Below are positions 55,348-60,156 of a DNA stretch of 64,000 bases, one piece after another (positions within the stretch are counted from its first letter, which is position 1; every line of letters starts with the position of its first letter). The position numbers and the translations under genes are program-made. Origin of the DNA: Clostridia bacterium (GTDB lineage Bacteria > Bacillota > Clostridia > Acetivibrionales > DSM-2933). Where the stretch lies: NCBI GenBank assembly GCA_026418275.1, contig JAOABQ010000113.1:1-64000 (forward strand). Reading direction: 5' to 3'. The notes under the pieces were generated by a model. The model saw only the letters and a list, made by a program, of their open reading frames with translations. It was not told the origin of the DNA and ran no database searches.

Positions 55348-55374
55348 CTTATGAGTGCATGCCTGTCTTTTATT

Positions 55375-55399
55375 CACTTGTGATACGGTTCAACCTATC
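55375..55399 (+). repeat. degenerate rlmH-type att repeat
   Basis: Eleven leading bases (CACTTGTGATA) and 18 of 25 overall match the direct repeat at 57201. It lies left of the XRE/flavoprotein pair. This could be the left end of a second, older insertion, or chance. Confidence 0.4.
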
Positions 55400-55479
55400 A
55401 CTCACCAACTAAACCATAAAATAATAATAATTATTTGTTAAACTGAGGGGGCATCCCCTTTTGGTGTCCCGATACTAAC

Positions 55480-56310
55480 TTAAGTATCATTCCTAAATAG
55501 TACTTTAAGCTTTTCAAATGTTTCTTCATCAGCAGGTGTATGAACAGCAATTTTAATTCGAGGATCACTAGACACGTCAAAGCTTGTAAAGTCAAATACC
55601 AATTGCCCTACAGGTTCAACGTTCAATTTTTTTCGGAAATTTTCTTCAAAAGCAACATTATGTTCTAACCACCATTGCTTAAAATCGTTACTTTCAATCA
55701 TCAATTCCTCAACAAATTTTTTAAACCATTGATCGGATGCATAGATACCACAGGAAAGCCTGAATTGAGAGACTATCCATCGTGCAGCTTTATCCCATTC
55801 AGCAAATAGCCCTTTGTAACTAGGATTTGTAAACATTCGCCATATTGTGTTTCTTTCTCTATCGTTCATTTTGTCAAAATTGCCAAATATCACTTTAGCG
55901 GATGCATTCCAACCGATAACATTCCAATATTGATCTGACGCAAATGAAGGAAATGGCCCCAACTTATCTAGTACAGCTTGAAGAGGTTTACTGACAAGCT
56001 GAGATTTTTGTGGCTTTATCTCTGTCATAGTCAGTTGTGAAAGCATAAAGACATATTGCATTTCCGTTTCATCCAAAAGCAGAGCATGTCCTATACTTTC
56101 CAAAACTTGCTCTGAGACTTTTATGGGACGACCTTGTTCCAGCCAAGTATACCAAGTCAAACTGACATTTGCCAATTGAGCTACTTCTTCACGCTTTAAA
56201 CCGGGAGTTCTTCTACGGTTACCATAAGGCAACCCAACTTGAGTCGGTGAAATTCGCGCTCTTCTTGTCTTCAAAAACTGTCCTAATTCCTTGAATCTAT
56301 ATTCATCCAT
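55480..56310 (-). CDS. XRE regulator with MmyB-like sensor domain
   Basis: A 276-aa protein. An N-terminal helix-turn-helix (LGQFLKTRRARISPTQVGLP and VAQLANVSLTWYTWLEQGR, about residues 8-60) is followed by an MmyB-type ligand domain (about 105-270) with LVFDFTSFDVSSDPRIKIAVHTP near the end; such domains bind fatty acids. It is divergent from the flavin reductase gene, so it probably regulates that gene. Start at 56310 follows GAAAGGGTATATGTAT. Confidence 0.88.
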   Translation of the reverse strand: MDEYRFKELGQFLKTRRARISPTQVGLPYGNRRRTPGLKREEVAQLANVSLTWYTWLEQGRPIKVSEQVLESIGHALLLDETEMQYVFMLSQLTMTEIKPQKSQLVSKPLQAVLDKLGPFPSFASDQYWNVIGWNASAKVIFGNFDKMNDRERNTIWRMFTNPSYKGLFAEWDKAARWIVSQFRLSCGIYASDQWFKKFVEELMIESNDFKQWWLEHNVAFEENFRKKLNVEPVGQLVFDFTSFDVSSDPRIKIAVHTPADEETFEKLKVLFRNDT

Positions 56311-56444
56311 ATACATATACCCTTTCAATATTTCAAAAACATATCCTATTACTTTTTATAATAGTATAATTGATAAACTTGTTGAAGTAATTATTCCCTA
56401 TTATAATAACATCAAGATAATTACCAAATAATTGGAGGTATGTC

Positions 56445-57002
56445 ATGAATATACTGGCTATAAATGGCAGCGGGAGGCCATCTGGAAACAATTATAACAT
56501 ATTAACAGCCTGTCTGGAATCTTTCAATAAAGATACTTGCTCCACGGAACTAATATATCTTGGCCACTTAAAAATCGGAGCTTGTAAATCCTGTTACAAT
56601 TGCAAAAACGAGAGCGGTAAATGTATTATAGAAGACGATATGACCCATATTACCAAAAAAATAATGGAATCCGATCTTTTGATTATTAGTTCTCCCATAT
56701 ATATGTGGCAAATTTCCGCAGAAACAAAGTTGTTCATGGAGCGGCTGTATCCTTTATATCATTTTGACAGACCCCCTGAACTGAAGGGAAAGAAATTAAT
56801 CCTCATTTTCACTCAAGCCACACCTGACAGAGAAATGTTTAAAGCTTATTTTGAACACATTAAGGATTCTATGAGTTTTTTAGGATTTGATGTCGATGAT
56901 GTTGTTGTCATACCCGGACTACGCAAGGCTAACGACTATGCAAACTATCCAGATATGCTAAATAAAATTGCGGTCATTGGCAATAGAGATTGGAAGCTCT
57001 AA
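56445..57002 (+). CDS. NADPH-dependent FMN reductase/flavodoxin-like protein
   Basis: A 185-aa flavoprotein with the flavin phosphate loop GSGRPSGNNYNIL near residue 8 and an Fe-S-like or structural CKSCYNCKNESGKC stretch (about 48-62). SSPIYMWQISAETKLFMERL near residue 90 is typical of iron-sulfur flavoprotein relatives and NADPH quinone reductases. TTGGAGGTATGTC precedes the ATG. It is divergent from a MmyB-type regulator. Confidence 0.85.
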   Translation: MNILAINGSGRPSGNNYNILTACLESFNKDTCSTELIYLGHLKIGACKSCYNCKNESGKCIIEDDMTHITKKIMESDLLIISSPIYMWQISAETKLFMERLYPLYHFDRPPELKGKKLILIFTQATPDREMFKAYFEHIKDSMSFLGFDVDDVVVIPGLRKANDYANYPDMLNKIAVIGNRDWKL

Positions 57003-57201
57003 TTCCTTCGTATGAGTCTTCTGTCTTGCATCAGATAAGATGTGAAAATATTATTTTGCCTATATTTAAAAAGGTACATCATTTTATTTTCTTTATTTAC
57101 CTTTTTTTTATTTACTCACGGACATACTATACTGTTGTCTTTTAGAACCGCACCGGACAGGCTCCAAGTAAATTTGGAACTTATATTGAAAACCAACTAT
57201 C

Positions 57202-57222
57202 ACTTGTGATATGTCTCACCGT
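57202..57222 (+). repeat. left direct repeat of the rlmH-linked cassette
   Basis: A 21-bp perfect copy of the 3' end of rlmH (59602-59622), beginning ACTTGTGATATG. It lies 2.4 kb away from the rlmH copy. Direct repeats of an orfX/rlmH end bracketing a cassette are the hallmark of SCC-type insertion. Confidence 0.9.
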
Positions 57223-57231
57223 ATATATCTA

Positions 57232-57243
57232 AAAGGATAATTT
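57232..57243 (+). repeat. left inverted repeat of the cassette
   Basis: AAAGGATAATTT, located nine bases inside the left direct repeat. Its exact reverse complement lies at 59590-59601, directly inside the right direct repeat. Confidence 0.85.
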
Positions 57244-57345
57244 GTAGAAGTGTCCATTTTAGGCACTTCTGCCTCATTTTCTATGTTGCATTAATTTGTA
57301 ATAAGTATAGCTTAATTGGTGACGCAGTGCATAGCTATTTTGAAA

Positions 57346-58032
57346 CTATTTTATGTATTCTAATAACTCTTCGACAAGTTTATATACCTTGGTAGCAGGA
57401 AGCATTTTAGCTGGTGAGCTTACACAAGCTTCATCGTGAACTTTAATTAGTTTTTTTGCCCAACCAATTGCCTTTTGAACTTCTCCATATTTCCCAAGAA
57501 CCTCAAAAATGTCAGTTCTGTTTTTTTCATATTTCCCAAGCCCTAAACTTTCAAAATATTCTGTCAATTTATCGCAATATTTTCCCCTTTTAATTCCAGA
57601 GTTTAAATACTCGAAGTGCAAAACAAACCAAAGTTCAATCGCTTCATTTGACCATCCTACATTATATCCATAAGATTCTGCCTGTTCAATAGAACTATTA
57701 AATTGGTCATCAGAAAAATCATCCTTGTCATAAATAATCCAAACGTGTCCATAACCTAGTGGAGATTTATTAATCATTTCTTTTACAAACTCAACAAGAT
57801 CATTTGTATTTCTACCTGTTCCATGGATGTTAAGTTCAACTTTTGTAGCAACACTTATCTTATTGCCGCTATACTCTCTATTTATTCTTTTCTTAATTCC
57901 CTCGAAGTAATTAGGTTCTGTCTTTTCCCCTTCACATACAATCAAATACCTTGATGGTGCCATTATTCGGTTATTTTCTTTTCTCTTTATTTTTTCCCTT
58001 GTTCTTTTCTTAAATAAATCATCAGAACCCAT
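57346..58032 (-). CDS. rloB: RloB-family Toprim protein
   Basis: A 228-aa protein with a Toprim-like core: YLIVCEGEKTEPNYF near residue 29 supplies the acidic glutamate, and VWIIYDKDDFSDDQF near 95 the DxD metal site. EAIELWFVLHFE near 134 is the RloB family hallmark. It starts one base after the stop of the AAA ATPase gene (GAGGAGTAAT before ATG 58032), so the pair is coupled. AAA15 ATPase plus Toprim pairs occur in anti-phage systems such as PARIS (AriA/AriB) and the rloAB genes of type I restriction loci. Nuclease or sensor activity is inferred. Confidence 0.88.
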   Translation of the reverse strand: MGSDDLFKKRTREKIKRKENNRIMAPSRYLIVCEGEKTEPNYFEGIKKRINREYSGNKISVATKVELNIHGTGRNTNDLVEFVKEMINKSPLGYGHVWIIYDKDDFSDDQFNSSIEQAESYGYNVGWSNEAIELWFVLHFEYLNSGIKRGKYCDKLTEYFESLGLGKYEKNRTDIFEVLGKYGEVQKAIGWAKKLIKVHDEACVSSPAKMLPATKVYKLVEELLEYIK

Positions 58033-58033
58033 A

Positions 58034-59281
58034 TTACTCCTCATCCCCAATCATTTTGAATTCTTTGAGTAATGGGACAGCTCCGTATCTCCCTGATATA
58101 TAATCCTTATTGTAAGTAGCATCATTTCTTACTTTCGTGTTCTCATCCAGATTGTATTCAGCAAGAGAATAAAGTGATGAAACACCATAATCATCCTTTT
58201 CAACAAACCAAATTTGATCTCTTCTGAATAAGTCCCTTGTCAAGTTATAAACATCATGTGTAGAATAAATTAATTGCGCATTTTTTTTATTTGTATCCTT
58301 ATCATGAAACATTGTAATAATATACCTTAGTAGCAAAGGATGTAATTTCGCATCGAGCTCATCAATAAAAAGTAAATCACCCTTTGTTAATGCAGTACTA
58401 AAATAATTAAATAGCAAAAACATTTTTTGTGTGCCACTTGACTCCTCAGATAATTCTATTTCTTCAAGTTCATCACTATCTTTTACCTTATGTTTTGTAT
58501 AGATTTTATAAGTAGAAGAGGAATTCATGATAATTTCTTCAACTCTTACCCCTACAATCCCAGTATCAATTGCCATCATAAATTCTTCTAACTTACTTCG
58601 ATACAAATCTTCCTTTAGTTTTCTAACAAAATTTAACCTTCTAGATAAAAAGGTCTCATATCTAGCATCACCAAAATTCATCACATTTGATTTAATAAAC
58701 CATCCATAAACATTTTCAGCTTTCTCAATTTTGGTTTGTGCTAACAAAGAAATAAATAATGTCTTTTCCTGTAAAGAAGCTTTAAATTTCTCAGCATCTT
58801 TAAAGTCTTTTCCACAATCTATCCTTCCTTTTTCTCGATAAAATAATGATTTAAACTTTTTAGCTTTAATCTTTTTCGCTAATAACCACTCTTCATGCAC
58901 TTTTTCTTTGTCTACGATAAACCCATACTGATATTCTAAACCTTTATATATAAAGAATACTTCAAATAATGTTGCTGCCTTTTTACTTTCATTATCGAAA
59001 AAATAATTTTTAATAGGAATATTTTGTTCCCTACTTTCAATATCTAAACCGTTCTCTTTTAATGAAGCAAAAACATAATAGCTCATAAATTGAAACGCTT
59101 CGATCATATTAGATTTTCCACTTGCATTAGCTCCATATATTGCAGAAACTCTAAGATATTTATCATCTGTACCTATATCAATCAAGTTGTATTGATGCTC
59201 TTTAATGGAAGCAGCAGTCATATCAAAAGAAGTTTCATTTTTAAATGACTTAAAATTCTTAAAATTAAATTGTATCAGCAT
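58034..59281 (-). CDS. AAA15-family ATPase (RloA-like)
   Basis: A 415-aa ABC-type ATPase of the AAA15/OLD-like group. N-terminal FKNFKSFKNETSF precedes Walker A YGANASGKSN near residue 50. The signature SEESSGTQKMFLLF lies near 277 and Walker B LLFIDELDAKLHPLL near 305, with the HDVYNL motif of the family about 40 residues later. No membrane segments. Start at 59281 follows GGTGAGAGTT. It is the sensor/engine half of a two-gene defence unit with rloB. Confidence 0.9.
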   Translation of the reverse strand: MLIQFNFKNFKSFKNETSFDMTAASIKEHQYNLIDIGTDDKYLRVSAIYGANASGKSNMIEAFQFMSYYVFASLKENGLDIESREQNIPIKNYFFDNESKKAATLFEVFFIYKGLEYQYGFIVDKEKVHEEWLLAKKIKAKKFKSLFYREKGRIDCGKDFKDAEKFKASLQEKTLFISLLAQTKIEKAENVYGWFIKSNVMNFGDARYETFLSRRLNFVRKLKEDLYRSKLEEFMMAIDTGIVGVRVEEIIMNSSSTYKIYTKHKVKDSDELEEIELSEESSGTQKMFLLFNYFSTALTKGDLLFIDELDAKLHPLLLRYIITMFHDKDTNKKNAQLIYSTHDVYNLTRDLFRRDQIWFVEKDDYGVSSLYSLAEYNLDENTKVRNDATYNKDYISGRYGAVPLLKEFKMIGDEE

Positions 59282-59599
59282 AACTCTCACCATCCCTAAT
59301 AATTATATCGTACTATATTATATTCAAAATTACAATATTTTGTGAATATTTCTCAAATTATTAAATATTATTTTCAAATAACACAATATTATTCTCTTTT
59401 TTTGAAAATATATCTCCTAAAGCCTAATGATTAAATCTAATTTAGGATAACATACGGTCATCCTCACCTTATCCCAAATTGTCAAAATCCTTTATCATCA
59501 ATACTTTCAGCAAATCACTTCTCCAAAAATAAAAATCTCCCAAATTCGCTTAAGTCCTAAAACCCTCGCAAATAGGAGATTTTCTCAAAAAATTATCCT
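59282..59599. other. promoter side and right junction of the cassette
   Basis: About 320 AT-rich bases with the cassette promoter (unresolved), a hairpin (AAATCTCC and GGAGATTT, about 59533-59585) that could terminate rlmH leftwards, and the right inverted repeat. No gene is visible. Confidence 0.55.
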
Positions 59600-59601
59600 T
59601 T
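59590..59601 (-). repeat. right inverted repeat of the cassette
   Basis: AAATTATCCTTT, the exact reverse complement of the left inverted repeat at 57232, immediately next to the right direct repeat. Confidence 0.85.
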
Positions 59602-60079
59602 ACTTGTGATATGTCTCACCGTTGATAATCTTAAATGCCCTAAAAACCTGTTCCACAAGCATAAGCCTTACCAACTGGTGCGGAAAAGTCAAATCCGACA
59701 TGGAAAGCCTTAAGTTTGCCGCTTTTAGGAGCTGTGTCCCCAAACCCAAGGAACCTCCAATTACAAAGGTAAGATGCGAATGCCCTGTAACAAAAAAGGA
59801 TTTCATTTTTTTAGCCAACGCTTCAGAGTCAAGCTTTTCACCCTTTACATCCAGCAGTATGAGGAGGGTTCCGTCCTTTACCTTCTTCATAATCTTATCC
59901 GCTTCCCGCCCCTTAATTTGTTCCTCTTGAGCGGGGCTTATATGATCCGGTGCAGGCTCATCCTCCACCTCCATAATTTCCAAATCACAAAAGCGCCCCA
60001 GCCTCTTAGCGTATTCTGCAATTCCCTCCTTCAAATATTTCTCCTTCAGTTTTCCTACTGCAATTATTGTCAATTTCAT
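59600..60079 (-). CDS. rlmH: 23S rRNA pseudouridine-1915 N3-methyltransferase
   Basis: A 159-aa SPOUT methyltransferase (LTIIAVGKLKEKYLKEGI start, FVIGGSLGLGTQLLKAA near residue 103, LVEQVFRAFKIINGETYHK at the end) that methylates pseudouridine 1915 of 23S rRNA. The length equals staphylococcal OrfX. GGATGGTGAATACG fixes the start at 60079. Its C-terminal codons form the right repeat of the adjacent cassette, so the protein remains intact after insertion. Confidence 0.95.
   Translation of the reverse strand: MKLTIIAVGKLKEKYLKEGIAEYAKRLGRFCDLEIMEVEDEPAPDHISPAQEEQIKGREADKIMKKVKDGTLLILLDVKGEKLDSEALAKKMKSFFVTGHSHLTFVIGGSLGLGTQLLKAANLRLSMSDLTFPHQLVRLMLVEQVFRAFKIINGETYHK
59602..59622 (+). repeat. 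right direct repeat, within the 3' end of rlmH
   Basis: Identical over 21 bp to 57202-57222. It encodes the rlmH C-terminal residues GETYHK, and the stop codon lies at 59600-59602. This is the probable attachment site. Confidence 0.9.
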
Positions 60080-60156
60080 CGTATTCACCATCCGTCATTT
60101 AAAAAGAGAGGATTTTCTCCTCTCTTCATCGTGTATTCCTTTTAGATTTTTAAACT

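Follow-up and report, generated by a model that had tools for sequence, protein, structure and literature searches.

Staphylococcal cassette chromosome (SCC) elements insert at the 3' end of rlmH. They lie between direct repeats of the gene tail, have inverted repeats at their inner ends and can form tandem composites. Some staphylococcal members, the pseudo-SCC class, lack ccr genes (PMC8407400, PMC6450365). Related elements are also published from outside the staphylococci: in Enterococcus, the cassette chromosome ECC (PMC6222049), and in Bacillota, many islands that lie downstream of rlmH (PMC10061031). Among the latter, Pol-SSB islands have a second end formed by an rlmH-tail repeat, occur as tandem composites and carry genetic-conflict cargo. 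Here, we describe the rlmH locus in a 64,000-nucleotide stretch of DNA from a Clostridia bacterium (positions 1 to 64,000 of contig JAOABQ010000113.1, assembly GCA_026418275.1), hereafter the window. We put at about 80% the probability that the 3' end of rlmH holds a tandem pair of small SCC-type cassettes, with one or two genes each, bounded by Ccr-like half-sites and without a recombinase gene. While SCC elements measure tens of kilobases, the window cassettes are 1.8-2.4 kb long, with one or two genes, no ccr, other arm sequences and a host in the Clostridia. Similarly, ECC has ccrAB and averages 42 open reading frames (ORFs), and Pol-SSB islands encode recombinases, a helicase and a primase, whereas the window cassettes contain cargo only. 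An earlier reading of this DNA, which we call the original prediction, stated that such an element was not known to have been described outside staphylococci and their relatives. The ECC and Bacillota reports contradict this.

The target gene, rlmH, is at 59600..60091 on the minus strand (PF02590, 190 bits). A 21-bp sequence from its 3' end, ACTTGTGATATGTCTCACCGT, occurs as a perfect direct repeat at 57202-57222 and 59602-59622. These are the sole copies; searching with 20 of the 21 bases, and allowing up to three mismatches, gave no other match in the 5.8-Mb draft genome. Just inside the direct repeats are perfect 12-bp inverted repeats. These read, on the plus strand, AAAGGATAATTT in the right arm (57232-57243) and AAATTATCCTTT in the left arm (59590-59601), and the arm sequence is AAATTATCCTTTTAGATATATAC. 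The proximal attachment site, GGT-GA-GACATATCACAAGTAA, is formed by the rlmH end (59600..59622, minus strand) and has its GA centre at 59616-59617. The middle site, between cassettes 1 and 2 (57200..57222, minus strand), is centred on the GA at 57216-57217. Both arms are symmetric about GA. The 2.4-kb interval, cassette 1, contains an ATPase ORF and an RloB ORF only, both co-directional with rlmH, and no recombinase was recognisable among the ORFs between its repeats. The base composition of cassette 1 is foreign, with a GC content of 29.8% compared with about 40% either side. The rlmH ORF is intact and ends ETYHK-stop, the last codons (TYHK-stop) coming from the left end of cassette 1. Insertion at the rlmH 3' end between rlmH-tail repeats, and inverted repeats at the inner boundaries as arms of a circular site, are both features of the SCC family. 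Since neither window cassette carries ccr genes, the pseudo-SCC class fits best. These repeats and arms, together with the GA symmetry of the sites found here, support the SCC-like anatomy of the original prediction. Its limits, 57202-59622, hold for cassette 1, but the whole feature is composite and reaches 55374 (see below).

Next, consider the symmetry of the attachment sites. We joined the two ends of each of 47 segments, as in a circle, and scored pairing over 28 positions. Each segment runs from one rlmH-end site to the next; the loci come from the window, from its order and from Clostridia of other orders. For cassette 1, 17 of the 28 positions pair about the GA of GGT-GA-GAC (offset 0). 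Other offsets within 25 nt gave 12 or fewer, and when the arms were shuffled 20,000 times, two shuffles did as well as the cassette. The mean over all 47 junctions was 13.4 at the GA of GGT-GA-NNC, compared with 5.9-8.2 at other centres. Segments bearing a recombinase gene are also GA-symmetric, with scores of 23/28 (locus L096, CcrB-like) and 19/28 (locus L062, CcrC-like). Note that, with the centre left free, comparing arm complementarity within a site and between cassette ends was ambiguous; setting the centre at GA resolved the question. Mean symmetry was then 13.4 for the circle junction and 13.0 for the distal site, against 10.7 for the proximal site and 11.1 for the reconstructed empty site. 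The same distribution is found with ECC, where inverted repeats are reported in attR and attECC (PMC6222049). Inverted repeats symmetric about GA are the form expected of a large-serine-recombinase attP. Hence, with junctions palindromic about GA, the 12-bp inverted repeats of cassette 1 would be the outer parts of attP. We infer from the symmetry that GA is the crossover point. The predicted circle junction of cassette 1 is AAATTATCCTTTTAGATATATACGGT-GA-GACATATCACAAGTAAAGGATAATTT. The rlmH site is predicted to read AACGGTGAGACATATCACAAGTGATAGTTGG after loss of cassette 1 and AACGGTGAACCGTATCACAAGTGAATAAAAG after loss of both cassettes.

A weight matrix was built from rlmH 3' ends of the order; in a shuffled control, it gave four matches of at least 14 in 1.35 Mb. 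In the window, a third rlmH-end site, of degenerate sequence, scores 24.3 (55374-55394, minus strand, GA centre 55390-55391). Beside it is the right arm of cassette 2, GGTTTAGTTGGTGAGTGATAG (55395..55415, minus strand). The outer arm next to the core of this distal site, GGTTTAGTTGnnnAGTGATA, is also found at the outer end of a peptide deformylase cassette in relative G003. Among 58 genomes of the order, matches to GGTTTAGTTGnnnAGTGATA within two mismatches occurred only in the window genome and G003, with none in a reversed control. The one match with three mismatches, in G020, is on a different contig from the rlmH gene of that genome. In addition, the right flank of the 55374 site resembles sequence following rlmH in relative L053. 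Because of the site score, the arm common with G003 and the L053-like flank, the feature most likely has its outer boundary at 55374, and ~55392-57217 is most likely a second recombinase-less cassette of 1.8 kb. The third site closes this second cassette, and so makes the element a composite. Cassette 2 encodes an NADPH-dependent FMN reductase or flavodoxin-like protein (56445..57002, plus strand, PF03358) and an MmyB-type helix-turn-helix regulator with an MLTR_LBD domain (55480..56328, minus strand, PF17765 and PF13560). A GGCAGTATTATCCTCATAACATAGTATAACAT-like motif is present 3' of rlmH or of cassette ends in several families (L041, L052, L053, L069, L088, L089, L158 and the window at 55374).

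We then turn to the cargo of cassette 1. The upstream gene (58034..59293, minus strand) encodes a 419-residue AbiLi-type AAA ATPase (PF13304, 112 bits; PADLOC AbiLi, 307 bits). It overlaps by 17 bp the gene for a 234-residue AbiLii/RloB-type Toprim effector (57346..58050, minus strand; PF13707, 153 bits; PADLOC AbiLii, 97 bits). In alignments of seven sequences, the Walker A and Walker B motifs and conserved histidine of the ATPase are invariant, as are residues E40, D108 and D110 of the effector. The pair thus has the AbiL arrangement, with adjacent AbiLi and AbiLii genes and intact motifs. Sequence comparison found no relative in the PDB for either protein. In published work, AbiLii is described as the toxic, Toprim-type effector protein of a system for abortive infection, with RloB as a relative (PMC10440598). 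AbiL of Lactococcus, as cited there, is likewise a pair of ATPase and RloB/Toprim proteins; the window pair is divergent from it in sequence. The most likely function of the pair is abortive phage defence. The original prediction of a two-gene, RloA/RloB cassette was correct in its gene count and in recognising an RloB/Toprim member. However, the ATPase belongs to PF13304 (AAA_21) rather than AAA15, and the AbiL-type label fits better, given the PADLOC scores.

Sites of this kind recur across the Clostridia. At ten loci among the 48 genomes of the order with rlmH found, strong repeats lie downstream of the gene, and all of them share its strand. A consensus site pattern was matched in 89 of 391 genomes sampled from the class, and a reversed control gave very few matches. 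Sites are co-oriented within every locus that has at least two. The 47 segments between sites range from 0.4 to 13.7 kb, with a median of 2.3 kb, and 41 are 5 kb or shorter. Their cargo, by Pfam or PADLOC, includes DNA alkylation repair, Fic, peptide deformylase, ParE, MazF/PemK, CAAX protease, AraC/Cass2, nucleoside-gate membrane, DEAD-box helicase, OLD and GmrSD proteins. Also found were an ABC transporter-type ATPase (ABC-F-like), a second AbiLi-like ATPase (L141) and a D12 methyltransferase with a type II restriction enzyme. Other cargo thus occurs between rlmH-end sites in relatives. The ABC-F-like cassette is common to two families, with 79% nucleotide identity over most of its length. 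Of about 30 other matches to the ATPase in the class, only L134/L141 has rlmH-end sites on both sides.

Three side observations concern these loci. First, L091:5630-6532 is a single-gene rlmH cassette for a regulator of the AraC type, whose Cass2 domain has a Pfam name derived from integron cassettes. Second, in genomes G096, G412 and G428 (L099-L104, L141-L150), numerous rlmH-end-like sites lie on parts of contigs in which the search found no rlmH; cassettes, or the sites they land in, may thus be scattered. Third, one bin, G004, has two rlmH genes (L041 on contig C86 and L042 on C100), and an rlmH-end repeat with a small cassette comes after both. The second copy may be real, or the bin may be contaminated.

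Instead, the rlmH tail might have been duplicated locally, or homologous recombination might have produced the repeats, leaving ordinary flanking genes in between. Tail duplications do exist, since survey locus L108 has a longer rlmH-tail fragment. However, duplication does not predict GA-symmetric inverted arms, arms common between genomes, or unrelated cargo recurring in one orientation, and homology between the repeat copies ends at the attachment core. We consider this origin highly improbable. A stronger competitor is that small cassettes are not mobile units but what deletion left of larger SCC-like elements, after loss of the recombinase and backbone. Remnants of ECC that keep both att sites have been described (PMC6222049), the L153 segment contains a 143-residue recombinase fragment, and a broken recombinase copy is present elsewhere in G009. 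Conversely, full-length recombinase genes are in two of the 47 segments (L062, and L096, where the 3' end of the gene overlaps the distal site), and the remaining 44 gave no trace of one on comparison with seven seeds. Furthermore, most segments are complete one- or two-gene units near cassette size, and both arms of cassette 1 are intact and symmetric. Decay from larger elements is, on balance, rather unlikely.

Comparison of occupied and unoccupied loci bears on the origin of the pair. The ATPase/RloB pair is absent from every other rlmH locus searched in the order. Hence, relatives do not all carry the pair at rlmH, and we reject an ancestral pair conserved at this position. By synteny, ~200 bp separate rlmH in G008 and G012 from a diaminopimelate-dehydrogenase-like gene, so named from its sequence. 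In a further genome of the genus to which these two belong, G009, the distance from rlmH to the next gene is 1.9 kb, and includes a MazF cassette and more. The G003 deformylase cassette precedes the same diaminopimelate-dehydrogenase-like gene.

Which enzyme might move such cassettes? In relatives, the rlmH site is used by two elements of 13 kb, one with a CcrB-like recombinase (325 bits) and the other with a CcrC-like one (124 bits). The window genome has seven large-serine-recombinase domain matches, six of them full-length, and one is clearly CcrB-like (G000:C9:100950-102389, 284.6 bits). The latter is related to the L096 recombinase, sited at rlmH, and could be proposed to move the rlmH cassettes. 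However, it is encoded by a ~5.7-kb element (~8870-14560 of L050, G000:C9:92000-111900) that splits spoVFB, the gene for dipicolinate synthase subunit B. Both gene halves are present, with a short ACAGGGAA repeat at each end, and the element looks like a sporulation-gene intervening element. Moreover, the surrounding 20 kb contains no rlmH-type site within two mismatches. We regard this enzyme as an improbable mover of the cassettes, and reject it as the helper. The L062-type recombinase was also rejected, being absent from the window genome. Thus, for the recombinase in trans presumed by the original prediction, a Ccr-like enzyme is present, but in the spoVFB element, and the rlmH-associated CcrC-like type is missing.

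In G018 and G044, the gene for the L062-type enzyme directly follows rlmH; in G009, it lies elsewhere and has two stops. In G044 (L061, contig C43), the gene upstream of the element ends NGEP-stop, without the YHK tail restored by small cassettes. The G009 copy (L175, G009:C1:3346134-3347804) is 69% identical to the L062 recombinase and lies ~200 kb from the recombinase-less MazF cassette; perhaps it is a decayed helper. The outer arm of L062, TCATGTATTcGGTAA, is also found on recombinase-less cassettes of G004, G033, G032, G009 and G042. Hence, one recombinase specificity probably served cassettes with and without their own enzyme.

Several points weigh against a pair of mobile cassettes in the window. 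No helper recombinase was identified in the window genome, the distal site at 55374 is degenerate, and cassette 2 alone is barely palindromic (10/28). Some long survey segments may be host DNA between sites. In addition, the genomes compared include only one of the window's genus, which leaves the window without a direct empty site. We nevertheless favour SCC-type cassettes, plausibly mobilised in trans, because of their anatomy, their recurrence without recombinase genes, and the Ccr-like elements at the same site. From the sequences we infer that the cassettes move, and the best account is that a helper is plausibly supplied in trans; those of the window may now be stranded. A Ccr-like recombinase from another element would bring the circular attP together with attB, the end of rlmH, and strand exchange would take place at the GA in the middle of GGT-GA-NNC. 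The left end of the cassette would re-supply the last rlmH codons, so that rlmH stays intact. A full rlmH-end site would be rebuilt beside the gene, open to entry of further cassettes. In this way, cassette 1 would bring an AbiL-type abortive-infection pair, with an AAA ATPase controlling a Toprim effector.

The organisation, although not the machinery, resembles that of integron arrays: small, diverse modules in tandem and co-oriented, each with one recombination site and no recombinase. The differences are that the sites are rlmH ends, that recombinases found there are serine enzymes (Ccr-like) rather than tyrosine enzymes (IntI), and that neither a platform gene nor a promoter common to the cassettes was recognised at the rlmH arrays. 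Tentatively, and at somewhat less than even odds, rlmH may be an integron-like capture site in many Clostridia. Ccr-like enzymes acting in trans would exchange small cassettes at GA-centred sites, so that genes for defence, toxin-antitoxin modules and adaptation collect in tandem arrays with rlmH intact. A literature search for integron-like cassettes with serine recombinases returned mainly classical integrons, and no description of tandem, gene-sized, recombinase-less rlmH cassettes across Clostridia was found in open-access papers. Widespread cassettes of this kind, with one or two genes, would go beyond the published SCC, ECC and island reports. This novelty is provisional, since the search was open-access only and most subscription papers fell outside it.

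Taken together, recombinase-less cassettes of one or two genes are common at rlmH in Clostridia, and the gene looks like a plug-in site for useful genes, running on the machinery of the methicillin-resistant Staphylococcus aureus cassettes. This would carry the SCC principle from islands of tens of kilobases down to units of gene size in the anaerobic Clostridia, and suggests that integron cassette arrays have a counterpart based on serine recombinases. With a predicted circle junction and a conserved GA centre, the idea is open to direct tests. The ends of rlmH are also a searchable hotspot for small defence systems, including AbiL, OLD, GmrSD, restriction and toxin-antitoxin modules.
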